A stretch of 64,000 bases of DNA from positions 620,001 through 684,000 of the forward strand of contig NC_023033.1 in the NCBI RefSeq assembly GCF_000505665.1, given 5' to 3'. Source of the stretch: Thermosynechococcus sp. NK55a (GTDB lineage: Bacteria > Cyanobacteriota > Cyanobacteriia > Thermosynechococcales > Thermosynechococcaceae). The translations under genes were made by a program, and so were the position numbers. Each line of letters opens with the position of its first letter. Positions within the stretch are counted from its first letter, which is position 1. Positions 20,065 to 45,043 of this stretch are shown here, in pieces. The notes beneath the pieces were generated by a model that did not search any database, was not told the origin of the DNA, and was given only the letters and a program-made list of their open reading frames with translations.

Positions 20065-20866
20065 TTAAGACTCGGCATCACGGCATTTCTCAAATGTAAA
20101 TATTGCCAAGCAATATTTTTGTTGACCCGTGTGCAGCAGGGCTTTCTCTAAATCTTCAGATACCACAAACTTATTACTATCCTCCGCGTATGCCAATCCT
20201 TTAAGCAGCAAGCCTTGCTCCGCTGCATACCGAGCTATCTTGAATGGATCAATAATACAGTGCGCATTGAATTCCACGCGCTCGCGACCAACAGGTGCCG
20301 ACAAGTAAAAGATCCCACCAGGCTTGAGCATTTTTGCCATATTCTTTAAACCCAGCAAATGCCCATCCGGTGCGATCGGATCGCCATAGCGGCCCAATCC
20401 GAAATGCTCCAACGCATGCAGGCACGACAATGAATCACAATAATTGTGAAATGAATCTGGCAGATTCATCACATCTGCTTGCTTGAACACAATGCCAGGA
20501 ACTGGCGCAGTAATCGGCCGCACATCAATTACCTCGATCTCCCTGAAACTTGCGACGTGTGCAACAAAACCGTCTACACGGGAACCCACATCGACATGTT
20601 TTTCGGGAGCGTCCGCATGTATCAGCCGGGCAACATAAAGGTCCTGCCAGAAGTATTCGTTGGAGGTGGAGCCCCCTTCTTCAAACCAATCGTGCAAACA
20701 TGGCATGAATGAGATTGAGCCACCGTACCTTGCCTTGAATCGTAACAAGTCGGCCAAGTAAGCGGGGCAACCCCTTGAGTGCCCTGCCAAAACGCCTCAC
20801 GTCCAGACCGAGCTGGACACATAATAGCCAATGCAATTTATAAAGAAGGTTTCTCACACTCGACAT
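20065..20866 (-). pseudogene. DUF268 family protein with a one-base insertion near its start
   Basis: From 20866 the first frame reads MSSVRNLLYKLHWLLCVQLG and then ALKGLPR. The next continues YLADLLRFKARYGGSISFMP to CRDAES at 20065. Removing one T near 20761-20763 gives 267 codons including stop. HVDVGSRVDGFVAHVASFRE and VIDVRPI are the DUF268 core, a methyltransferase-like fold; LHALEHFGLGRYGDPI follows. DUF268 genes commonly occur in glycan loci, but the activity is unknown. Translation from an internal start (20790 frame) would still give most of the domain. Confidence 0.75.
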
Positions 20867-20911
20867 TCAAGCTGATCAGAAATAGTAAGTAGCGAAACCG
20901 TTCCCGCGTCA

Positions 20912-21643
20912 TCAAATTTGTTTCCAGCGTTGTTGCCATCGACGATTATCGACAAAAATTGCATTTATATAAGTGTCGGCATACAAAAAATAATCATTTT
21001 GCAGCATTTCATTTAATATCTCTTGTCTTCTTTTCGGCTCTTGACGCGTCTCATATTCAATTACCTCGACACATACACAAAAAGGCCTAAATTTTTCCCA
21101 TTCGATTGCCTCAATTATTTCGTAGTCAAGCCCCTCAACATCTAGATTCAAAAAGTCCAAATAGTCAAATTCTGACAAGATTTCATTTATGCCTTTTACT
21201 TCGACTGAAACAGTATCAATGATACGATGCCCGTTTGCCACATAACGGCGAGCCTCTTCCTCAGAAAATGTGCTCAAGGTAGGAGGATCCATTATAAAAA
21301 AATCTGCATACCCATGCGTCGCAGAAATACCGCATTGCATAATTTTGTCTCGTTGTCGCTTTCGTCGAAGAAGTTTTGCATAGTATGGGTTGGGCTCAAC
21401 CAAAACCCCACTATGTCCAGCTGCATATAATAGGGCTGTATTCGATAGAAAATAGGGGTGATGGGCTCCAATATCTAGATATCGAAGTTGCTTTTTACCG
21501 TTAGTAAAGTTGGTCAAGATAAAATTTATAATTAAATCTTCTCCACACTGGGAATAAGAAGTTCTTTTGTAAAAAGAAGACGGAACATTGCTCTCAATTA
21601 TCTGCTTCAACATACGCATAAACACCGCTTTCAAGTTAAACAT
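20912..21643 (-). CDS. FkbM family methyltransferase
   Basis: About 243 residues. The N-terminal SYSQCGEDLIINFIL and RYLDIGAHHPYFLSNTALLY are FkbM hallmarks, the latter binding SAM. VEPNPYYAKLL, then IDTVSVEVKGINEIL and DFLNLDVEGLDYEIIEAIEW complete the family core. It probably O-methylates a sugar of the island's glycan. The ATG at 21643 overlaps the preceding methyltransferase by 8 bp; an alternative ATG at 21619 lies in a near repeat of the same sequence (cataaacaccg at 21617 and 21641). The gene is strikingly AT-rich against its upstream neighbours, pointing to a different origin. Confidence 0.82.
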   Translation of the reverse strand: MFNLKAVFMRMLKQIIESNVPSSFYKRTSYSQCGEDLIINFILTNFTNGKKQLRYLDIGAHHPYFLSNTALLYAAGHSGVLVEPNPYYAKLLRRKRQRDKIMQCGISATHGYADFFIMDPPTLSTFSEEEARRYVANGHRIIDTVSVEVKGINEILSEFDYLDFLNLDVEGLDYEIIEAIEWEKFRPFCVCVEVIEYETRQEPKRRQEILNEMLQNDYFLYADTYINAIFVDNRRWQQRWKQI

Positions 21644-22133
21644 AAACACCGTTTGCGTGCGGCACGTAGGCCTGGGAGTAATCATCCACATCGGCATGCT
21701 CGGTGTGCCGCCAGTCGTAGCGGCGCACGTTGACGAAGCCCGCCTCGGTGAGGTTGCGCGAAAGCGAGTCGAAGTCGAAGACGTTGTAGTGGATGTTGTA
21801 GAGATAATCCTGCCGGCCAAACAGCGGGCCGATCACGAGGTCGAGTTTGCCGAAGCGGCGGTAGACCTCGCAGATCTGCGCGAAGTCTGGCACGGAGATG
21901 CGCAGCACCCCGCCCGGCCTGAGCACGCGATGCCATTCCTTCAGCACCCGCGGCACGTCACGCCGCTTGAAGTGTTCCAGCACATGGCAGTTGTAGATGA
22001 GGTCGACCGAGCCATCCGGGATGAACGACAGGTTGTCGATGGTAGCGACATGGTCCACATGGGGATAATCGATGGCATCGATATGGACGAAGCCGGGAAT
22101 GTGGCGCTTGCCGCAGCCCAGGTGGAGTTTCAT
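21636..22133 (-). CDS. Small class I SAM-dependent methyltransferase
   Basis: A 165-residue protein beginning [20 protein letters not shown], a compact SAM-binding start. [20 protein letters not shown] and [13 protein letters not shown] complete the core. Such short methyltransferases with an HxLEH motif are common in O-antigen loci, where they modify sugars. The acceptor is unknown. Its ATG overlaps the acetyltransferase stop by 4 bp. It is GC-rich like the 16.8-19.8 kb section. Confidence 0.85.
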
Positions 22134-22678
22134 GATCTTACCCCCTTTGCGTTCAAGGCCTGGCGCCCGTTTTCCCGCCGGATTTCGGCGGGGAGCAAGG
22201 TTTTCACAATGCGCGCCGGTACGCCAGCAACCAAGACGTCCTCTGGCACATCCTTCGTTACAACCGCTCCCGCAGCAACGATGCTGCGGCTGCCGATTCT
22301 GACCCCCGGAAGAATGATGGCGCCTGTGCCAATCCAGACATCGTCGCCGATTTCGACGGATTGATTGATGCCGACCGCGGTGATGGGCAGTGCAGCAGGA
22401 TCGTGCGTGGGAGTCACGATGCGGGTATCAGCCGCGATGGCGCAGCGTTCGCCGATGCTGATATGGCCTTGCGAGGAAGCCCACAGGTAAACGCCGGGGC
22501 CTATCGAGGTGTTGGCACCGATGCGGACATGCCGCGACCATGCGATTCTGACGCGATCGTAAATTTGCGCACGCGGCCCCAAGTACCCCAGCCGCAGACG
22601 GAAATAGGTCATACGGATGCGCATGAAAGCTTTGCTCGGGAGGGCGAAGGCGTAGGCGATTGATTTCGCAAAGGTCAT
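22130..22678 (-). CDS. Left-handed beta-helix acetyltransferase (WcaF/serine-acetyltransferase-like)
   Basis: A 182-residue protein. The middle carries hexapeptide turns ([64 protein letters not shown]) ending in [13 protein letters not shown] holds the catalytic histidine position. It probably O-acetylates a sugar using acetyl-CoA. It is the first gene of the island's minus-strand series, so the promoter should lie in 22679-22894. The frame is intact. Confidence 0.88.
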
Positions 22679-22894: not shown

Positions 22895-25800
22895 ATGACT
22901 CAAGCAGCGTGGTTAGAACTGGTCAAATCAGTGAGTGAGCAGGGCGTCCAGTTACCCACCGGCGGACTGAAAATTGGCCGTGCCCCTGATAACGACCTTG
23001 TTCTCAACGATCCTTCTGTTTCCCGCCACCATGCTTACTTGGGATGGCAAGAAGGGAGAGTACATTTAACTGATCTGGGCAGTAAGGCAGGTACCCATCT
23101 CAATGGCCAGCCAGTTGTGCCCAATACCCCTATTCCTCTAGAAAATGGTGACTTAATCACGCTTGGCAACTCAGCAGTGCGTTTTCGCCTGGTTTGGCAG
23201 TATCAGGAATATCAGCCCGGCACTCTCGAGGTGGGTGGGCCTACTGAAGTTCCTGTGGTTGAAGTTCGCACAAAAACGTGGCGACAACGTTGGGGATTAA
23301 GGGAGCAAACTAGTCTTTTGGGAACGCATCCTGGCTGCGATGTCGTGGTGGATACTCCTGAACTGCTGCCCTGCCATTTGAAGTTGCGCTTTGTCGATCA
23401 GCATCTTCAGGTCATTGATCTCAGTAACCCGCAGCCAGCGATGCACCCGTATTTGGGAATCGGGGAAAGCTATGCTCTGACAGAGTTTGTTACTCTCACC
23501 TATGTAGGACAGGAGTTGCCTGATTGCATTGATACCCAGCGCCATGCCATTGCCTTTAGCCCAGCGACAGAGTTGCGTTTGACCAACACGGCAACGGTAC
23601 TCGCCATTCCTGAGGCAGATGGCACACCCACTGTCCCTGTGAAGACGATTTCGCTGGTGGGATACAACACGTTCACGATCGGCCGCGATCCTAGTAATGA
23701 TTTAGTCATTGAGCATCCGACAGTCTCGCGTCACCACGCCAAAATTGAGCGCCGCAATGGCGATTTAATTCTCACGGACTTGGCATCCAGCAACGGCACG
23801 TTTGTCAACGGCCGTGAGGTAGAAACACCCACACTGCTGCGGGTGGGGGATAGTATCCGCATTGGCAGCGATCGCCTTGTTCTCAATGTCGATGAAACCC
23901 TGACCCAATATGCTGAATCGGGTCACATGCGCCTGGATGCCATCAACCTCACTAAGGTGGTGGGTAAAGGGACGCGAATTCTCCACGATATTTCCCTATC
24001 AATCATGCCCAAAGAGTTTGTGGCCATTCTGGGTCCCAGTGGGAGCGGTAAGTCAACACTCCTCGATGCCCTCAATGGATTGCGGCCAGCAACAACGGGA
24101 ACTGTACTGGTCAATGGCACAAATTTCTACCGCAACTATCAGGCCTTTCAAGCGCAATTGGGCTATGTACCACAGAAAAATATCATTCACGAGGAACTGA
24201 CGATCGCCCAAGCTTTGGAATATGCAGCAAAACTACGGATGCCCCCCGATACAACTGCAGCAGAACGCCAACGGCGGGTGACAGAGGTGTTAACAGAATT
24301 GGGACTGAACCACCGTCGGGATGTGCCCATTTCGCGTCTGAGTGGGGGTCAACAGCGGCGAGTATGTATTGGAGCAGAATTGCTGACCCAGCCCAGTCTT
24401 TTCTTCCTCGATGAGGCGACCTCTGGCTTGGATCCCGGCACTGAGGCGGACCTGATGTTTTTGCTGCGGCAGTTGGCAGATCAGGGGCGAACGATCCTCA
24501 TCATTACCCATGCCACCCAAAACATCCGGGAGTGTGATCTGGTGATCTATTTGGCGGAGGGCGGACGGCTCGCCTACTTTGGCCCCCCTGATCAACTGCT
24601 GCCCTATTTCCGCGCCACCTTTGGCGATCGCTTGAGTGGCATCAAGCTCGAGGATTTCTCTGGCATCTACCGTGCCTTAGACAAGGAGAAAAACCCCCAT
24701 GCCCCCACTTCAGAAGAGCTAGAGCAGGCCTACCGGCGATCGCGCCTCTATCAGGAATATGTTGTGGGACGCCAACAGGCGCTGGCTTACATGCCCGATG
24801 AAAGTCAGCGGTCCCCCAAGGGCAAGTCCGGTCGCAGCAGTGAACCGAAATCCAAAATCTCCCCTTGGCAACAATTTCTCATTCTCATCCACCGCAATCT
24901 CACTATCCTCAGTCAAGATCGCATCCAGCTGCTGCTGACCCTCTTAATTGCTCCCTTGCTCGCTAGTCTGAATTTTGTCTCTTGGCGGCGGGATCTCTTT
25001 AATCCCGAAACGGGGAATGGGGGTCAAGCCCTGACGATGATTTTTGTCACCAGTCTCATTGCGGTGATGATTGGTGCGATGACGACAATGCGCGAGTTGG
25101 TCAAGGAGGTGGAAGTTTATCGGCGGGAGCGGTTGGTTGGCCTGCGACTGTTGCCCTACCTTGGCTCTAAGGTGGCGATCGCCCTTGGTCTGGCCCTTTA
25201 TCAAGCGGCCACCTACCTTGCGGTAACAAAACTAGCAGTGGATTTACCGGGAGATTGGGGTGTCACCTTTGCCATGTACATCACCTTTGCCCTTGCCATT
25301 TTTGGCGGTATGGCGATGGGCCTTTTGGTGTCTGCCCTGGCCCCTAGCCAAAACATTGTGCCTCTGCTGGTGCTAATGTTTTTAGTACCACAAATTATCT
25401 TTAGTGGCGGTATTCAGCCCGTTTCTTCCTTTGGGTTGCCGGGGCAGATCATCAACCATCTGACGGTGATTAAATGGCCCTTTGAGGCGATGGTAAAGCT
25501 CACGGGTATGGGAGATGACATTGCCAATGACCCCTGTTGGCGGGAGCCAGAGGAAGAGCGGCAAAAAATGACCGAACAGATGCAGCGGGAGTTTTGTCTT
25601 TGCTATGGCCCCGGCCTCTTTCAAACCTGCAACTTCCCCGGAATTCGCTCCAAATACGTACCCACAGTGGATGAACCCGCACCGCCGCAGCCAGAGCCTC
25701 CCGGCGATCCCCCCAATGATCCGGCGGCGCTCCAGGACTACCTCCGACGGCTGCAAGCCTATCAGGCGGCAATGGACGAGTGGGAAGTAAAATACTCCGA

Positions 25801-25984
25801 GTGGAATCGCCAGCGCAGTCGCGCCATCAATGAAGCGCAGGGCACCATCAGTCGCTTCCAGCGGGATCAAGGGTATATGTTTACCGTGAATGTGCAACGC
25901 CATTGGCGGGATCAAAGCCTTCTCATCTTGGCAATGCTGGTGGCTTTACCCTTCTGTCAAAAACGCCGGGACTTTGGCCGTTGA
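22895..25984 (+). CDS. FHA-domain ABC half-transporter (ABCG-like), paralogue 1
   Basis: A 1029-residue fusion. FHA 1 spans about 20-100 (IGRAPDNDL, SRHH 43-46). A degenerate FHA spans 130-205 and lacks the SRH triad. FHA 3 spans 250-332 (IGRDPSNDL, SRHHAK 279-284, SSNGTFVNG). The ATPase follows: Walker A PSGSGKST 381-388, signature LSGGQQRR 482-489, Walker B LFFLDEAT 502-509, His539. The membrane part runs about 676-845, with a last helix near 1005-1022. Between them is a loop of about 160 residues with five Cys (881-912), a Pro-rich hinge (928-943) and a helical stretch. FHA domains bind phosphothreonine, so activity may be kinase-controlled. Substrate unknown. A paralogue lies at 36542. 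Confidence 0.9.
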   Translation: MTQAAWLELVKSVSEQGVQLPTGGLKIGRAPDNDLVLNDPSVSRHHAYLGWQEGRVHLTDLGSKAGTHLNGQPVVPNTPIPLENGDLITLGNSAVRFRLVWQYQEYQPGTLEVGGPTEVPVVEVRTKTWRQRWGLREQTSLLGTHPGCDVVVDTPELLPCHLKLRFVDQHLQVIDLSNPQPAMHPYLGIGESYALTEFVTLTYVGQELPDCIDTQRHAIAFSPATELRLTNTATVLAIPEADGTPTVPVKTISLVGYNTFTIGRDPSNDLVIEHPTVSRHHAKIERRNGDLILTDLASSNGTFVNGREVETPTLLRVGDSIRIGSDRLVLNVDETLTQYAESGHMRLDAINLTKVVGKGTRILHDISLSIMPKEFVAILGPSGSGKSTLLDALNGLRPATTGTVLVNGTNFYRNYQAFQAQLGYVPQKNIIHEELTIAQALEYAAKLRMPPDTTAAERQRRVTEVLTELGLNHRRDVPISRLSGGQQRRVCIGAELLTQPSLFFLDEATSGLDPGTEADLMFLLRQLADQGRTILIITHATQNIRECDLVIYLAEGGRLAYFGPPDQLLPYFRATFGDRLSGIKLEDFSGIYRALDKEKNPHAPTSEELEQAYRRSRLYQEYVVGRQQALAYMPDESQRSPKGKSGRSSEPKSKISPWQQFLILIHRNLTILSQDRIQLLLTLLIAPLLASLNFVSWRRDLFNPETGNGGQALTMIFVTSLIAVMIGAMTTMRELVKEVEVYRRERLVGLRLLPYLGSKVAIALGLALYQAATYLAVTKLAVDLPGDWGVTFAMYITFALAIFGGMAMGLLVSALAPSQNIVPLLVLMFLVPQIIFSGGIQPVSSFGLPGQIINHLTVIKWPFEAMVKLTGMGDDIANDPCWREPEEERQKMTEQMQREFCLCYGPGLFQTCNFPGIRSKYVPTVDEPAPPQPEPPGDPPNDPAALQDYLRRLQAYQAAMDEWEVKYSEWNRQRSRAINEAQGTISRFQRDQGYMFTVNVQRHWRDQSLLILAMLVALPFCQKRRDFGR

Positions 25985-32113: not shown

Positions 32114-32641
32114 CTCAACACCTCAACTCAATCATTGAAGTTAGCAGCAAAAAATTCCCTTCCCCACCGTTTAAGAAGGCAATGGCAATCACTTAAAACA
32201 ATGTCTAAACGATGTCTTAAGAAGGGCAAATTTATCACTGCCTCTGATGGCAAAAAAGTCGTTCTGATCCACTTTGGATCATCCTTAGCAAGGCGCGATA
32301 CCCTAGAGAAATCTCAATGAAAATCGCATCACAATAGACAATCTCCTTGTTTCAGAGAGATTTAGTAGTAGTGGATACATGGTTGAATTGAATGATGATC
32401 CTGTATCCATCCTTATTTTAGTGACTTCTGTTGAAGTTGACGATGAGGTTTTCCGAAAAGTTGCCCTTACAGCCACTGAAGTCCGCGGCGGCAACTGCAG
32501 ATTCAGAAATTATAGCCTTGGAATTCAACAGATGAGGGGGCATCCTCGCAACCGTAGGTGAATGCTCATAAAAGCCTAGTAGCACAGGTCCCCCTTTCTA
32601 AGCTAATCTGCAATTAGAGTCTGGCATTGGGGAGCACTGGT
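32114..32641. other. Gap of about 530 bp, no supported gene
   Basis: Short open frames exist on both strands, but none has convincing composition or a recognisable motif. Near 32110-32135 the word caactcaa appears twice, 13 bases apart. The 3' part should contain the promoter of the universal stress protein gene. Confidence 0.5.
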
Positions 32642-33523
32642 ATGTTTAAGAACATATTGATTCCAACAGATCTCCATGATGGCCTCCCCAAACTCACCCA
32701 CTACCTTGAGGCCCTGCAAACCGCAGGTGCCCGCAAATTGATCTTTTTCCATGCCCGCCCCATAAACGAGGATGGGGATAAGCCGCGGCTGCGGGAGGAA
32801 AAGCTGCAACAGGCGCGTGAGTTACTCAAAATTGACCCCACCAATGTCCCAGCCGATCTTAAAGCAGAGGTGATCATTGAAAACCGCCGCCCTGCTGATG
32901 CCATTCTGGACACCGCTGAAAAACATCAAATTGACTTGGTACTGGCTAGCCGTCCCGTCCGCAATCTATTGGATGAGAAACTCTTCGGCAGTACAACCAT
33001 TGAGGTACTGCAACGGATTAAAGTCCCGGTCATGATTATGCGCCCGCACCTGTTGTGGGTCATGACCACCGCAGAACTAAATCTCCGCTGTCAAAATCTC
33101 TTTCGTCATCTCCTTGTCCCCTACGACCACAGTCCCTCAGCTCAGCACCTCGTCCAAAAACTGCGGCAGGGTGTCCAACAGCCAGATCAAACGAGCATTA
33201 CTTCCCTAACGTTTTGCTGGATTATCAGTGATGCGGGTCAAAGGGAGCTGGGGATTGCTGAGGAGCGCCCCAAGGCAGAAAAAATCCTGGCCCAGCTGAA
33301 GCAGGAATTCACGGGCTATGGCCTGAGCGTTGAAACAGAGATTCGCTTTGGCAGTCCCGTTGTGGAAGCCCAGTTGGCAGCTTACGATCGCGACATCTAT
33401 GGAATTGTGGTTTCCTCTAGTTCCGTTGGTAAAATTTGGGAATTATCAATCCCCAGCTTTGCCGGGGAAATCATTCGCCGTTGCCACTTTCCTGTAATCT
33501 ATTTTCCGCCCGCTGGTCGCTAA
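32642..33523 (+). CDS. Universal stress protein, tandem UspA domains
   Basis: About 293 residues from the ATG at 32642 (MFKNILIPTDLHDG). The first UspA domain (1 to about 140) ends with LFGSTTIEVLQRIKVPVMIM. The second (about 150-290) starts RHLLVPYDHSPSAQHLV and ends SFAGEIIRRCHFPVIYF. The ATP-binding GxxGxxxx(S/T) motif is recognisable in the first domain only as FGSTT, so nucleotide binding is uncertain. Cytoplasmic; roles in stress adaptation are inferred from the family. It stands alone on the plus strand. Confidence 0.85.
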   Translation: MFKNILIPTDLHDGLPKLTHYLEALQTAGARKLIFFHARPINEDGDKPRLREEKLQQARELLKIDPTNVPADLKAEVIIENRRPADAILDTAEKHQIDLVLASRPVRNLLDEKLFGSTTIEVLQRIKVPVMIMRPHLLWVMTTAELNLRCQNLFRHLLVPYDHSPSAQHLVQKLRQGVQQPDQTSITSLTFCWIISDAGQRELGIAEERPKAEKILAQLKQEFTGYGLSVETEIRFGSPVVEAQLAAYDRDIYGIVVSSSSVGKIWELSIPSFAGEIIRRCHFPVIYFPPAGR

Positions 33524-36541: not shown

Positions 36542-39523
36542 ATGGCTGTGCCCATTCTCAACCTCTTAGGGGCTGATGGTTCACGACAGCAAATTCAACT
36601 GGGGCGCGATCGCCTGATCATTGGTACTGACCCCCAAAGCCAAGTGATTCTTGTCGGCGAGGGGATTTCCCGCCACCATGCCTTGATTCTTCCCACTGAA
36701 ACGGGCTACCAAGTGGCGGATCTCGGGAGCGCCAGCGGCACTTTTTTGAATGGCACAAAGCTGCGGCCGCGCACCCCTGTGGTTCTCAAGGCGGGCGATC
36801 GCCTCCGCATTGGGGACTTTGAAGCCATTTTCGATCCAGATGGCAGGGCAACAACGGAACTGCCAGGCACGGTCGTGATGGGGGCTGCTAGTACGCCAAT
36901 TTTGCAGGTGGCAACGCCTCACTGGTTGCAGGAGTTTCCGCTGCTCAAGGAGGAACTGATTCTCGGTCGGGACCCAAAGGCAGACATTACCATTGACCAT
37001 CCCTTTGTGTCCTTTCACCATGCCAAGCTGGTGCGATCGGGGGATCACTACAAAATCATTGACTTGGGCAGCAAGAATGGCCTTCACTGGCGCGGCACAA
37101 CGATGAGCGAACATACCTTGGCACCGGGAGATGTCATTCATGTGGGGGAATCGCTGCGCCTCACATATCTGTTGATGCCTGCCACGGAGGTTGTTGAGCA
37201 AACTCGACCCCTCCCACTGCGCGATCGCCAGCAGGTTCGCATTGGCCGCGATCCCAGCAATGATATGGTGCTGGATCATCCCGTCGTCTCACGGTTTCAC
37301 GCTCGCCTTTATCTCCAAGAGGGACAGTGGTACATCGTCGATCTCAACTCCGCCAATGGCACCTTTGTCAACAACCGACGCCTTGAACCCCGCAAACCTG
37401 TAGTCTTGCCAACGGGTGCGCTGGTGCGCATTGGTCCCTATAGTTCTGTTTTTACCCCCGACGAAACCATTGTTCCCCACAATGACAGTGGTAACCTGCG
37501 TCTCGACGCCATCCACCTCAGTAAAACCACCCCTAAGGGGGCGAAGCTCCTTCAAGATATTTCTCTTTCAATTTTGCCCCGCGAGTTTGTGGCAATTGTT
37601 GGTGGCAGTGGTGCTGGTAAATCAACGCTGCTCGATGCCCTCAATGGTTTTCGTCCTGCCACGAAGGGCATGGTACTGGTCAACGGCCATGATCTGTACC
37701 GCTACTTTGGAACATACCGCACCCAGATTGGCTATGTGCCTCAGGATGACATTATCCACCGGGAGTTAACTGTGGCTCAAGCCCTAGATTATGCAGCACG
37801 ACTGCGCCTACCCGCTGATTTTAGCGATCAAGAGCGACAGGAACAGGTGAACCGGGTTCTGGCGGAGTTGGAGTTGACAGCGCAGCGGCATGTCCTTGTT
37901 AAGCAACTGAGTGGTGGTCAGCGCAAGCGGGTGTCGATTGGTGTGGAATTGCTCACCCGCCCCAGTTTGTTTTTCTTGGATGAGGCAACTTCTGGCTTAG
38001 ATCCGGGCACGGAAACCCAAATGATGCGGCTGTTGCGGCAGTTGGCGGATCAGGGGCGAACGATTTTACTCATTACCCATGCCACTAAGAATGTGATGCT
38101 CTGCGATTTGGTGGTGTTTTTGGCGCGGGGCGGCTACCTTGCCTATTTTGGTCCACCGGATCAAGCCCTCAGCTATTTTGATGTTCAAGATTTTGATGAA
38201 ATTTACCTCAAGATTGAGAGCGAAGCTAATCCGGCCCTATGGCAGCAACGCTATCGCCAGTCTCATCTGTATCAAACCTATGTGGTGGAGCGACAGCGTC
38301 CCCTCAATGTGGATACAGGGGCAACGCGACAGGTCCAGCCCCAACATCAAAAAGCAACGATTCCCCGAGTGGCACCATGGCGGCAGTGGTGGATTCTCAT
38401 CCGGCGAAACTTGGCCATTTTGCGACAGGATCGGGCGGCCCTCATTCTCATGCTCTCTTTGGCGCCGATTTTGGGAGCCTTGGATTTTGTCCTCTGGAAG
38501 CCAATGATTCTTGATCCAGATCAAGGGGATGCGGGGCAGGCATTTACGATGGCCTTTGTTACTGTGCTCATTGCCGTGATGGTGGGCAGCCTAGCCACGA
38601 TGCGCGAAATTGTTAAGGAACTGGAGATCTATCGCCGTGAGCGGATGGTGGGGTTGGGGCTGTGGCCCTATATTTTTTCAAAGCTGGGCCCAGCAGTGGT
38701 CCTGGCACTATACCAAGCAGCCATTTTCTTGGGGATGAAGTTTTTGGCGATCAATCTTAGCCTCGGTATTGGGGCGATCGCTGGCCTTTACTTGACACTG
38801 TTTCTGGTGACCTTTGGTGGCATGGTAATGGGGTTACTGGTTTCTGCCCTCTCCCCCACTCAGACGGTTGCTCCTCTACTCACGATTCTCTTTTTGGTGC
38901 CGCAGATTACCTTTGCCGGTGCCATTATTCCCCTCAAGGATCTAGGGCCAGTGGGCAATTGGATCAGCGATGTCACCTTGACCCGCTGGGGCTATGCCAA
39001 TGTGGTTTCCCTCTTGGGCTTTGGTCAGGATGTGGCTCAAGATCCCTGCTGGCAGCAACCGAAGTCGGTACGGGAGAAGCGAAGTCCTGAAGCTTTGGCT
39101 CAGTGTCCCTGCTTTGGCGAGAACCTCTTCCGGCGTTGCCACTTTCCAGGGGTGCGCAAGGAGTACCACCCCGCTGTGGATGAACCAGAACCCCCCCAAC
39201 CTGCGGAACCAGGTGATCCACCGGCACTGCCCAAGTCCGTCTTAGAGTTGAATCAGGCCTATCGCGATCGCGTCGAGGAGTACAATCAGCGGGTCAAAGC
39301 CTATCAGAGGGCCATGGATCGCTGGCAAGACCAATTTGCCCTCTGGAAAGAGCAGCGGGGGCGGGCGATCGCCAGCGGTGAAGCCCTCATTGATCGCTTT
39401 TGGAGTCTTCAGGGGCAGACCTTCAACGCCAATGTTACTGCCAATCACCTGCGCTTAGGGGGCATTATTGCCCTGATGCTGGGACTAGTGGGGGTCTTTC
39501 AAAAGCGTAAGGATGTGCTTTAG
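36542..39523 (+). CDS. FHA-domain ABC half-transporter (ABCG-like), paralogue 2
   Basis: A 993-residue paralogue of the product of 22895-25984, with the same order. FHA 1 (about 20-98; SRHH 43-46, SASGTFLNG), FHA 2 (about 130-210; LGRDPKADI, SFHHAK, SKNG) and FHA 3 (about 225-305; IGRDPSNDM, SRFHAR, SANGTFVNN) all look better preserved here. The ATPase has GGSGAGKST 354-362, LSGGQRKR 456-463 and LFFLDEAT 476-483. A six-helix membrane part follows. The extracytoplasmic loop again has DPCW, CPCF, RRCHFPG, a VDEPEPPQP hinge and a helical stretch. Half-transporters dimerise; the two paralogues could form a heterodimer. Substrate unknown. Confidence 0.9.
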   Translation: MAVPILNLLGADGSRQQIQLGRDRLIIGTDPQSQVILVGEGISRHHALILPTETGYQVADLGSASGTFLNGTKLRPRTPVVLKAGDRLRIGDFEAIFDPDGRATTELPGTVVMGAASTPILQVATPHWLQEFPLLKEELILGRDPKADITIDHPFVSFHHAKLVRSGDHYKIIDLGSKNGLHWRGTTMSEHTLAPGDVIHVGESLRLTYLLMPATEVVEQTRPLPLRDRQQVRIGRDPSNDMVLDHPVVSRFHARLYLQEGQWYIVDLNSANGTFVNNRRLEPRKPVVLPTGALVRIGPYSSVFTPDETIVPHNDSGNLRLDAIHLSKTTPKGAKLLQDISLSILPREFVAIVGGSGAGKSTLLDALNGFRPATKGMVLVNGHDLYRYFGTYRTQIGYVPQDDIIHRELTVAQALDYAARLRLPADFSDQERQEQVNRVLAELELTAQRHVLVKQLSGGQRKRVSIGVELLTRPSLFFLDEATSGLDPGTETQMMRLLRQLADQGRTILLITHATKNVMLCDLVVFLARGGYLAYFGPPDQALSYFDVQDFDEIYLKIESEANPALWQQRYRQSHLYQTYVVERQRPLNVDTGATRQVQPQHQKATIPRVAPWRQWWILIRRNLAILRQDRAALILMLSLAPILGALDFVLWKPMILDPDQGDAGQAFTMAFVTVLIAVMVGSLATMREIVKELEIYRRERMVGLGLWPYIFSKLGPAVVLALYQAAIFLGMKFLAINLSLGIGAIAGLYLTLFLVTFGGMVMGLLVSALSPTQTVAPLLTILFLVPQITFAGAIIPLKDLGPVGNWISDVTLTRWGYANVVSLLGFGQDVAQDPCWQQPKSVREKRSPEALAQCPCFGENLFRRCHFPGVRKEYHPAVDEPEPPQPAEPGDPPALPKSVLELNQAYRDRVEEYNQRVKAYQRAMDRWQDQFALWKEQRGRAIASGEALIDRFWSLQGQTFNANVTANHLRLGGIIALMLGLVGVFQKRKDVL

Positions 39524-43468: not shown

Positions 43469-45043
43469 CTATTTAGGCAACTTTGTAAACCAGTTCTTCT
43501 TGGCGCGATCGAGCTGACCTTGAACAAACCCCGAGACCATACTAAAGTCTGCTCCAGAAATGTCGGCACCAGTAAAGTTGGCTCCCGAGATCGAGGCATC
43601 CAGTAGTTTTGCCCCCTTCAAATTTGCCCTCTCAAAGTTGGCTTGCACCAGATAGGCACCGCAGAGATTGGCATCATTCAGGTTAGCTCCCTGAAAATTG
43701 GCTTCCCGCAAGACAGCATTGGCAAGAATACAGCCTTTCAAATCTGCATTGGTAAAATTGGCATTGGCAAAGTTAGCCCCCGCCAGATCCGCATTGCGGA
43801 GAACAACGTTGGAGAGATCGACATCGATAAAATCTCGCTCTCCCCGTTTATAGGCTGTGAGCACCTGTGCCGCTGTCATCCGTGGTGTGACTTTGGCACG
43901 GAGGTGTTGACCGGGGCCAGTTCCGACAACCGGTGGGCCTCCCAATTGGGTCCCTGTCATCCGTGATTGGCGCACTCGCGCCGCTTGGGCATTTTGACTC
44001 ACCGATGAGGCATAACTGGAGCGCTTAGGTGCTTCAGGCACACGGGGGCGGCCTTGGGTCGGCGGGGTCGAAAGGGCATTGCTGAGGTCATCATCCTCTG
44101 CGGAAACAGTAGGAGCAGCGACACTAGCTGGTTGTTTGGACTCAAGTAGTTGCAGATCCGCAAGGACATCCATGGCGGTTTGGTAGCGATCTTTAACCGC
44201 ATCCTGGAGCATTTTGTTAAGGAGAGCAGCAAACGCAGGGGAAATATTTTTGACGTAGCGCTGCCAATGCCATTCGCCCGTGCGCGGATCCCGTTCAATT
44301 TCCTTGGGGGATTTAGCAGTCAGTAAGTAGACACAGGTGACCCCGAGGGCATAAATGTCACTGGCATAGACCGGACGCATGGCCATTTGCTCTGGCGGCG
44401 CATACATGGGGGTTCCCACTGCGAAGTTGGTAAATGTGGATAGCTCCGGGGCATTTTCCACCATAGCCTGCGTAACTTTGTCTTTTACCGCCCCAAAGTC
44501 AATAAGCACCAACTTGTTATCAATATCACGGCGGATGAGATTAGCCGGCTTAATGTCGCGGTGAATGACACCATTGGTGTGTAGGTAATCAAGGATGGGG
44601 AGCACTTCCTGCAAAACCTGCTTTACCTCTTCTTCGCTTTTGGGGCCAAAGCGCTTGACCTCCTGTTGCAGGGTAAGGCCACCCACGTATTCTTGAATCA
44701 GGTAAAATTCATTTTCATTTTCAAAGTAGCCGAGCAGCCGAGGCAACTGTGGGTGATTGCCAACTTTACCCAAGGTGGTGGCTTCCCGCAAAAAAAGCTC
44801 CCGCGCCATCGCTATGATGTGGGGAGCTGTGGCTGCTGGTCGCAACTGTTTAATCACACAGGTGGGATTGCCAGGCAGTTGCGTATCAATGGCCAAAAAG
44901 GTAGCGCCGAACCCCCCTCGCCCTAGAACTTTAATTGCCTTGTATTGATTATTGAGTAAAAGTTTGCTGCCGCAGGCTTGGCAAACATCGACATTGTCAG
45001 GGTTGTCCGGTTTGGTACAGTTCGGATTTAGGCAGTAACTCAT
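43469..45043 (-). CDS. Ser/Thr protein kinase with N-terminal zinc ribbon and C-terminal pentapeptide repeats (SpkB-like)
   Basis: A 524-residue protein. Cys4, Cys9, Cys21 and Cys24 form a zinc-ribbon-like start. The kinase domain (about 34-290) has GRGGFG 41-46, Lys65, HRDIKPAN 161-168 and DFG 182-184, all intact. A Pro/Ser/Arg-rich linker (310-400) follows. Then pentapeptide repeats of the A(N/D)LxxAN type run over about 410-505, forming a right-handed helix. The architecture equals cyanobacterial SpkB. Cytoplasmic; targets unknown. The pThr-binding FHA transporters in this window are conceivable partners, but that is inference. Confidence 0.9.
   Translation of the reverse strand: MSYCLNPNCTKPDNPDNVDVCQACGSKLLLNNQYKAIKVLGRGGFGATFLAIDTQLPGNPTCVIKQLRPAATAPHIIAMARELFLREATTLGKVGNHPQLPRLLGYFENENEFYLIQEYVGGLTLQQEVKRFGPKSEEEVKQVLQEVLPILDYLHTNGVIHRDIKPANLIRRDIDNKLVLIDFGAVKDKVTQAMVENAPELSTFTNFAVGTPMYAPPEQMAMRPVYASDIYALGVTCVYLLTAKSPKEIERDPRTGEWHWQRYVKNISPAFAALLNKMLQDAVKDRYQTAMDVLADLQLLESKQPASVAAPTVSAEDDDLSNALSTPPTQGRPRVPEAPKRSSYASSVSQNAQAARVRQSRMTGTQLGGPPVVGTGPGQHLRAKVTPRMTAAQVLTAYKRGERDFIDVDLSNVVLRNADLAGANFANANFTNADLKGCILANAVLREANFQGANLNDANLCGAYLVQANFERANLKGAKLLDASISGANFTGADISGADFSMVSGFVQGQLDRAKKNWFTKLPK

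Follow-up and report, generated by a model that had tools for sequence, protein, structure and literature searches.

A cyanobacterial FHA-ABCG half-transporter with a four-cysteine head and a probable PPalpha-type stalk in its TM5-TM6 loop

The ABC1 locus

We describe a gene, called ABC1 here, in a 64,000-nucleotide stretch of the 2.52-Mb genome of the cyanobacterium Thermosynechococcus sp. NK55a (assembly GCF_000505665.1, contig NC_023033.1, positions 620,001 to 684,000). That whole stretch is what we mean by the window. ABC1 encodes a half-transporter with three forkhead-associated (FHA) modules, a nucleotide-binding domain (NBD) and a transmembrane domain (TMD), and this work will focus on the large loop between its fifth and sixth transmembrane helices (TM5 and TM6). 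The features of the gene are these:

22895..25984, + strand: ABC1, an FHA-FHA-FHA-NBD-TMD half-transporter, ATG start, 1029 amino acids
22946..23185, + strand: FHA1, residues 18-97, canonical (G28 R29, S43 R44, H46, N70 G71)
23306..23506, + strand: FHA2, residues 138-204, a degenerate FHA fold
23675..23866, + strand: FHA3, residues 261-324, canonical
23972..24604, + strand: NBD, residues 360-570 (Walker A GPSGSGKST, signature LSGGQ, Walker B FFLDEATSGLD, H-loop H539)
24863..25507, + strand: TMD, residues 657-871, TM1 to TM5 and the short helices after TM5, ABCG fold
25508..25657, + strand: four-cysteine head, residues 872-921, placed by its invariant cysteines and the model
25535, 25595, 25601 and 25628, + strand: first bases of the codons for C881, C901, C903 and C912 of the head
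25670..25723, + strand: polyproline arm, residues 926-943, with proline at roughly each third residue
25724..25879, + strand: helical rod, residues 944-995, with heptad-spaced aromatics Y949, Y956, W963 and W970
25892..25981, + strand: TM6 and basic C-terminal tail, residues 1000-1029

Pfam matches FHA (E 1.5e-50, two stretches), ABC_tran (363-510) and ABC2_membrane (659-868), and the FHA-like model Yop-YscD_cpl matches three stretches of the protein. Conservation was read from a reference alignment of 26 rows drawn from several families, with the near copies L010, L015 and L054 and the frame-truncated L011 excluded; all four excluded sequences have the four-cysteine pattern. L011:3368-6259 is the orthologue from a Thermosynechococcus metagenome-assembled genome, where a frame change inside the proline arm leaves 964 amino acids; this may be an assembly error. 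The Walker A, signature, Walker B and H-loop motifs of ABC1 are all intact, and G383, G385, K386, L482-Q486, D506, E507 and H539 are invariant in all 26 rows.

The first-pass annotation, made from the sequence alone, called this protein an ABCG-type half-transporter, and that assignment holds. The NBD stands ahead of the TMD on one chain, and Pfam, AlphaFold2 and Foldseek together give an ABCG fold. The AlphaFold2 model built with the 26 rows has a mean predicted local distance difference test score (pLDDT) of 82.8 and a predicted template modelling score of 0.66. Its best matches in the PDB by Foldseek are ABCG2 (E 2.4e-23) and ABCG5/8, and residues 363-864 match ABCG2 at the sequence level. 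ABC1 presumably dimerises and exports a substrate.

The loop between TM5 and TM6

The loop covers residues 872-999, about 130 residues, and has two modules, a cysteine head and a polyproline arm that is predicted to lie along a helix of ~53 residues. A Cys/Pro-rich loop between the last core helices had been described in the annotation, and every element named there is present between TM5 and TM6: DPCW (879-882), CLC (901-903), TCNFPG (911-916), a proline stretch and a long helix. The head cysteines C881, C901, C903 and C912, spaced C-x19-C-x-C-x8-C, are the only cysteines on the predicted outer side of ABC1. They are invariant in 26 of 26 rows, as are P930, P933 and P936 of the arm, so these motifs are beyond chance.

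Average conservation is highest in the NBD (0.79) and TMD (0.69), followed by the proline arm (0.64), the head (0.59) and the helix base (0.57). The distal helix is the least conserved segment of the loop (0.46), which suggests that the specific work falls to the cap near the membrane, with the rod acting as a spacer or as a brace for the dimer.

The loop is also confidently modelled. Its pLDDT in the whole protein is 79-89 (79-88 over the head), and when folded alone with 21 rows it reaches a mean of 90.7, with 95-97 over the proline arm and a single helix at 943-997. An intrinsically disordered hinge is ruled out by these values in context and over the lone arm. The suspicion that the loop might be disordered and not conserved therefore fails, since it is conserved and predicted to be ordered.

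The loop occupies the position of extracellular loop 3 (EL3) of ABCG2, between the short helices after TM5 and TM6. By homology we believe it is a greatly enlarged EL3. Basic residues mark both the tail after TM6 (4 K/R in 9) and the TM2-TM3 loop (6 K/R in 20), and because of these stretches and the homology to EL3 the loop should face the periplasm, or the lumen if the protein sits in thylakoids. This agrees with the extracytoplasmic side proposed before. The same annotation held that the loop is foreign to ordinary ABC-2 permeases. It is real, conserved and enlarged, but loop cysteines have a precedent in ABCG2 EL3 (PMC12250437).

A PPalpha-type register

A profile of 21 loops was compared with 177,635 distinct PDB sequences, and the top nine matches were designed PPalpha miniproteins (E 3e-4 to 3.4e-3), the best being 5lo2 (23.8 bits, E 3e-4). 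The antigen I/II adhesin 6e36 came next, weakly (E 0.025). The alignment covers residues 2-35 of the 36-residue miniprotein and takes in both arms and the turn. Recomputed, the score is 22.9 bits, against maxima of 3.8 when the columns of the whole block were shuffled and 14.1 when each arm was shuffled separately (100 trials each). A Pfam scan of the 21 loops found nothing above the cut-off in the first member and only weak families across members (best E 0.0053). Among the 23 weak families, the pancreatic peptide family Hormone_3 (3 of 21 loops) and Strep_SA_rep (2 of 21) fall below threshold and point the same way as the profile match.

The register itself is plain in the sequence: proline at roughly each third residue, then a helix whose heptad aromatics and leucines share one register. 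In 45 distinct but related loops, whose counts are thus not independent and whose kinship was ignored, there are 157 pairs of aromatics at i+7 against a mean of 31.8 and a maximum of 47 in 300 shuffles, and 177 pairs of prolines at i+3 against a mean of 92.8 and a maximum of 111. Pairs of aromatics at i+11 (47) likewise exceed every shuffle (maximum 37), which a helix with two hydrophobic rows would be expected to produce. The 45 loops were chosen by regular expressions that required the cysteines, the residues preceding the arm and an aromatic where the rod ends. Because these lost some loops, including that of ABC1, cysteine conservation was counted on the 26-row alignment.

We conclude that the arm and helix probably form a PPalpha-type hairpin. 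The first-pass annotation read the proline stretch as a hinge. We part from it here: the stretch is modelled as an ordered coil and has the PPalpha register, which suits the polyproline arm of a rigid hairpin better than a hinge.

A single loop-bearing branch

As a single-protein query, the loop was positive in 29 of 58 relatives: its own genome, all 10 others of the genus, 15 of the 18 others of the family and 3 of 29 elsewhere in the class. A profile search across the phylum found it in at least 11 of 386 genomes (7 of 142 genera), once as the head only; this is a lower bound with nine candidates at most scored per genome. A strong FHA-ABC match occurs in 46 of 292 genomes and 40 of those 46 hold one that ends before the loop, again a lower bound, with two candidates scored per genome. 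One such protein, ABC3 (L003:901-3516), is the third FHA-ABC protein of the same genome and lacks the loop. None of the 14 readable relatives of the loop-less type that we inspected has it. Six plasmid records matched the loop, all cyanobacterial (four inspected), and no loop was found in the viral contigs searched. In a whole-protein scan of genome contigs, the non-cyanobacterial loci match over the ATPase stretch.

A tree of the NBD and TMD, with the loop omitted, separates 30 loop-bearing and 3 head-only proteins from 15 loop-less ones with branch support of 100/100; the loop-less ABC3 and L127 are long branches, and the join of ABC3 may be false. As far as these sequences go, the cyanobacterial FHA-ABCG exporters that carry the loop make up a single, well-supported branch. 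The three head-only copies are on plasmids, one of Nodularia and two of Nostoc, and keep the four cysteines without arm or rod. They fall among the loop-bearing proteins, in a group of 25 rows (support 100/99) that also contains the Brasilonema copy. With a root among the loop-less proteins, the simplest account is therefore that they lost the stalk, and the head is probably the part of the loop that matters more.

The cyanobacterial plasmids L094-L096 and L116 share a transfer or partition cassette of a small protein, a ParM-like protein and a head-only FHA-ABC exporter, with a MobV relaxase in L094-L096. The exporter of L095 has 620 amino acids and no FHA module, and in L116 only a fragment matched. 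The cassettes of L095, L096 and L116 also hold further small genes and one very large gene.

FHA modules and possible phosphothreonine control

Three FHA modules had been reported in ABC1. FHA1 and FHA3 stand as canonical, with the full residue set (G-R, S-R, H, N-G), while the middle module fails it and is degenerate: T144 stands where 17 of 26 rows carry R, L158 takes the place of the S found in 15 of 26, and the NG loop is replaced by a gap. Judged by these residues, then, ABC1 has two canonical modules and one degenerate one. The ligand-contact residues of FHA3 (G263, R264, S278, R279, N300 and G301) are invariant in all 26 rows. FHA1 is absent from 11 of the 26, including L060, where it is absent only through the choice of start codon; that row was taken from its first ATG, and an earlier start would give 1030 amino acids.

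Control of ABC1 by threonine phosphorylation is plausible on these grounds. Such control is also supported by 3 of 28 related loci (L093, which is a Brasilonema plasmid, and L111 and L115), where a Ser/Thr kinase gene immediately precedes the exporter gene on the same strand, with gaps of 125 to 399 bases. The exporter was recognised in 28 of the 30 stretches surveyed (not in L102 or L116), and kinases were called by motif only. The binomial probability of three or more such neighbours among 28 is 0.003 at an assumed rate of 1% and 0.018 at 2%, treating as independent loci of which the near copies are not. The tail of the Brasilonema kinase has repeated Thr-containing segments that could be FHA ligands. 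The genome of ABC1 has 11 Pkinase matches over the cut-off.

The Brasilonema plasmid, pBOCT2 (L093:118-11211), carries in a row a DUF4255 gene on the opposite strand, the Ser/Thr kinase, the loop-bearing exporter, a WD40 protein and a protein with weak immunoglobulin-like matches.

The paralogue ABC2 and the neighbouring genes

The window holds a second exporter of the same architecture, with a stress-protein gene and a kinase gene near it:

32627-33523, + strand: tandem universal stress protein (USP), 3 kb upstream of ABC2
36542..39523, + strand: ABC2, paralogue of ABC1 with the same architecture and loop, 993 amino acids
43469-45043, - strand: Ser/Thr kinase with an N-terminal CxxxxC...CxxC segment and C-terminal pentapeptide repeats

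ABC1 and ABC2 are 53% identical over residues 257-1026. The loop of ABC2 (approximately 39017-39418) has five heptad aromatics against four in ABC1. The two genes are 13.5-13.8 kb apart in 6 of the 8 single-contig genomes of the genus, which makes a heterodimer possible. The kinases of L111 and L115 have an N-terminal CxxxxC...CxxC segment of the same kind as the window kinase at 43469. The USP belongs to a conserved block, and the mycobacterial USP Rv2623 binds an FHA domain of Rv1747 (PMC5549992).

Upstream of ABC1 (20065-22678, - strand) are methyltransferase and hexapeptide acyltransferase genes, like an envelope-glycan island. The window open reading frames (ORFs) upstream of ABC1 have no match in the 3.4-4.5 kb of upstream sequence of L009-L011. 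Downstream lie a gene that we take to be DNA polymerase I-like, an M16 peptidase and further genes. Among the ORFs compared, we found no partner gene that many loci share, and the neighbours of ABC1 and ABC2 are not counted here as functional evidence.

Mechanism and alternatives

On balance we lean towards an ABCG exporter that is gated by phosphothreonine and whose exit cap, locked by disulphides, sits on a rigid stalk. The exporter would be a homodimer, or a heterodimer with the paralogue, controlled from inside and capped outside. FHA3, and FHA1 where present, would bind phosphothreonine made by a Hanks-type Ser/Thr kinase, and this binding would dock or cluster the transporter and tune its ATPase, in the manner described for the pair of Rv1747 and PknF. 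What the NBD and TMD export would be a hydrophobic or lipid-linked envelope compound. With EL3 enlarged from 42 residues in ABCG2 to about 130, the four cysteines would pair into two disulphides and so hold a small head fast to the exit roof. A polyproline-II arm would run outward from this head and pack on the returning long helix as a rigid PPalpha hairpin, extending the cap several nanometres into the periplasm (or lumen) ahead of TM6. A bolder form of the idea, in which this natural PPalpha hairpin is a rigid, disulphide-locked periplasmic stalk and a single protein couples cytoplasmic phosphothreonine signals to an outer cap or delivery arm that extends several nanometres into the periplasm or thylakoid lumen, we put forward only tentatively and consider doubtful.

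Several results weigh against the gated, capped exporter. No kinase gene adjoins ABC1 within the stretch examined. Of 7 relatives compared at a cut-off of 60% identity and 60% length, 5 retain the USP near ABC2 and 3 the kinase, although the stretches of L134 and L135 may stop short of the kinase; L137 and L138, in which the block is broken up, have neither gene. As the head-only plasmid variants show, the stalk is not always there. A strict length zipper was rejected, since the length of the proline arm and the number of heptads are uncorrelated across the 45 loops (rho 0.24, p 0.12); L083 has a longer arm and six heptads together, yet the general trend is absent. The loop found no convincing chain in the PDB by Foldseek (best E 6.3), no chain of the pancreatic-polypeptide (PP) fold being in that output, and neither VIA-align against the PDB (best Z 4.2) nor Foldseek against viral models (best E 5.8) gave anything convincing, results that leave a related fold possible.

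The same cysteines could make the loop a metal or redox sensor, in which they bind a metal or act as a thiol switch that shuts or opens the exit roof, and the stalk only positions the site. There are exactly four extracytoplasmic cysteines, all invariant, and a Cys4 metal site fits them equally with two disulphides; moreover, the head is what is retained where the stalk is absent. We nevertheless judge this decidedly improbable, because under the ABCG topology the segment would lie in an oxidising compartment, the homologous loop of ABCG2 uses disulphides (PMC12250437), and with no Pfam match above the cut-off no known metal ribbon is recognised. Emphasis on the rod leads elsewhere. The two PPalpha hairpins of a dimer might reach towards the peptidoglycan or a partner in the outer membrane and hand the substrate across the periplasm, for which MacB with its partner proteins is a rough analogue. 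The confident rigid hairpin fits this idea, with a ~53-residue helix that would span about 80 Angstrom at 1.5 Angstrom per residue, and so do the helix-plus-polyproline stalks of antigen I/II adhesins (PMC3178794). The distal helix, however, is the least conserved part of the loop, the rod varies in length among members, natural stalk-less variants exist and the ORFs compared offer no widely conserved partner, so that we consider docking unlikely.

It is also conceivable that ABC1 is an ordinary Rv1747-like exporter whose loop is a folding or dimer-stabilising ornament with no task of its own. The NBD and TMD are more conserved than any part of the loop (0.46-0.64), and loop-less FHA-ABC relatives are common, as the counts above make clear. 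Against this stand the four cysteines and three prolines held without exception in rows from several families and the strong support of the loop-bearing branch, and we consider a mere ornament unlikely.

Significance

FHA-gated ABCG exporters are known mainly from mycobacteria, through Rv1747, and their outside face has been little studied. The cyanobacterial branch offers a large, strictly conserved outer cap with four fixed cysteines and a recognisable, engineerable fold (probably PPalpha), in harmless thermophilic hosts that are suited to structural work. Two questions can be put to experiment: whether reading phosphothreonine inside alters export, and what purpose a rigid exit stalk serves for an ABCG exporter.

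Comparison with known systems

The FHA-ABCG fusion is already known from Rv1747 (PMC3908365), and ABC1 shares it. Like ABC1, Rv1747 has N-terminal FHA modules, an NBD and a TMD in one ABCG-kind half-transporter (PMC3908365, PMC9312465). The kinase next door in three loop-bearing relatives recalls pknF-Rv1747 (PMC3908365), although ABC1 itself does not share the adjacent Ser/Thr kinase. Rv1747 differs in having two FHA domains joined by a disordered linker (PMC3908365, PMC9312465), and in the excerpts of its description, by which alone the two were compared, no large TM5-TM6 insertion appears. The loop-less cyanobacterial FHA-ABC exporters such as ABC3 are closer, with the same FHA-NBD-TMD order in the same phylum and the same genome, but their EL3 is short and lacks the four-cysteine pattern, with a single cysteine in 1 of 15 (L126).

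Human ABCG2 and ABCG5/8 have the same fold and likewise a loop between TM5 and TM6, which contains cysteines in ABCG2. In ABCG2, EL3 is residues 589-630 (42 residues) with three cysteines; it contributes to the exit roof, and its intramolecular disulphide is important for both maturation and activity (PMC12250437). A cysteine-bearing EL3 thus has a precedent there. ABC1 differs in its ~130-residue loop after the re-entrant helices (872-999), its four cysteines, its PPalpha-like stalk and its FHA modules. In the literature searched we found no description of an ABC exporter that joins a conserved Cys4 head to a natural PPalpha-type stalk, so this combination appears to be undescribed.

The stalk itself is best compared with proteins outside the transporters. 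PPalpha miniproteins (5lo2, 6gwx), pancreatic polypeptide and the antigen I/II stalk all have a P-x-x-P arm followed by a helix with heptad Leu, Tyr or Trp, and in antigen I/II adhesins the helix-plus-polyproline stalk projects a head from the surface (PMC3178794). The likeness of the ABC1 stalk to PPalpha and PP-fold proteins is likely to be convergence, and we claim no homology. Unlike the miniproteins, the ABC1 hairpin sits inside an exporter loop with a cysteine head. The miniprotein fold was reportedly designed from adhesin and hormone parts; the ABC1 stalk would be its natural, transporter-borne counterpart.

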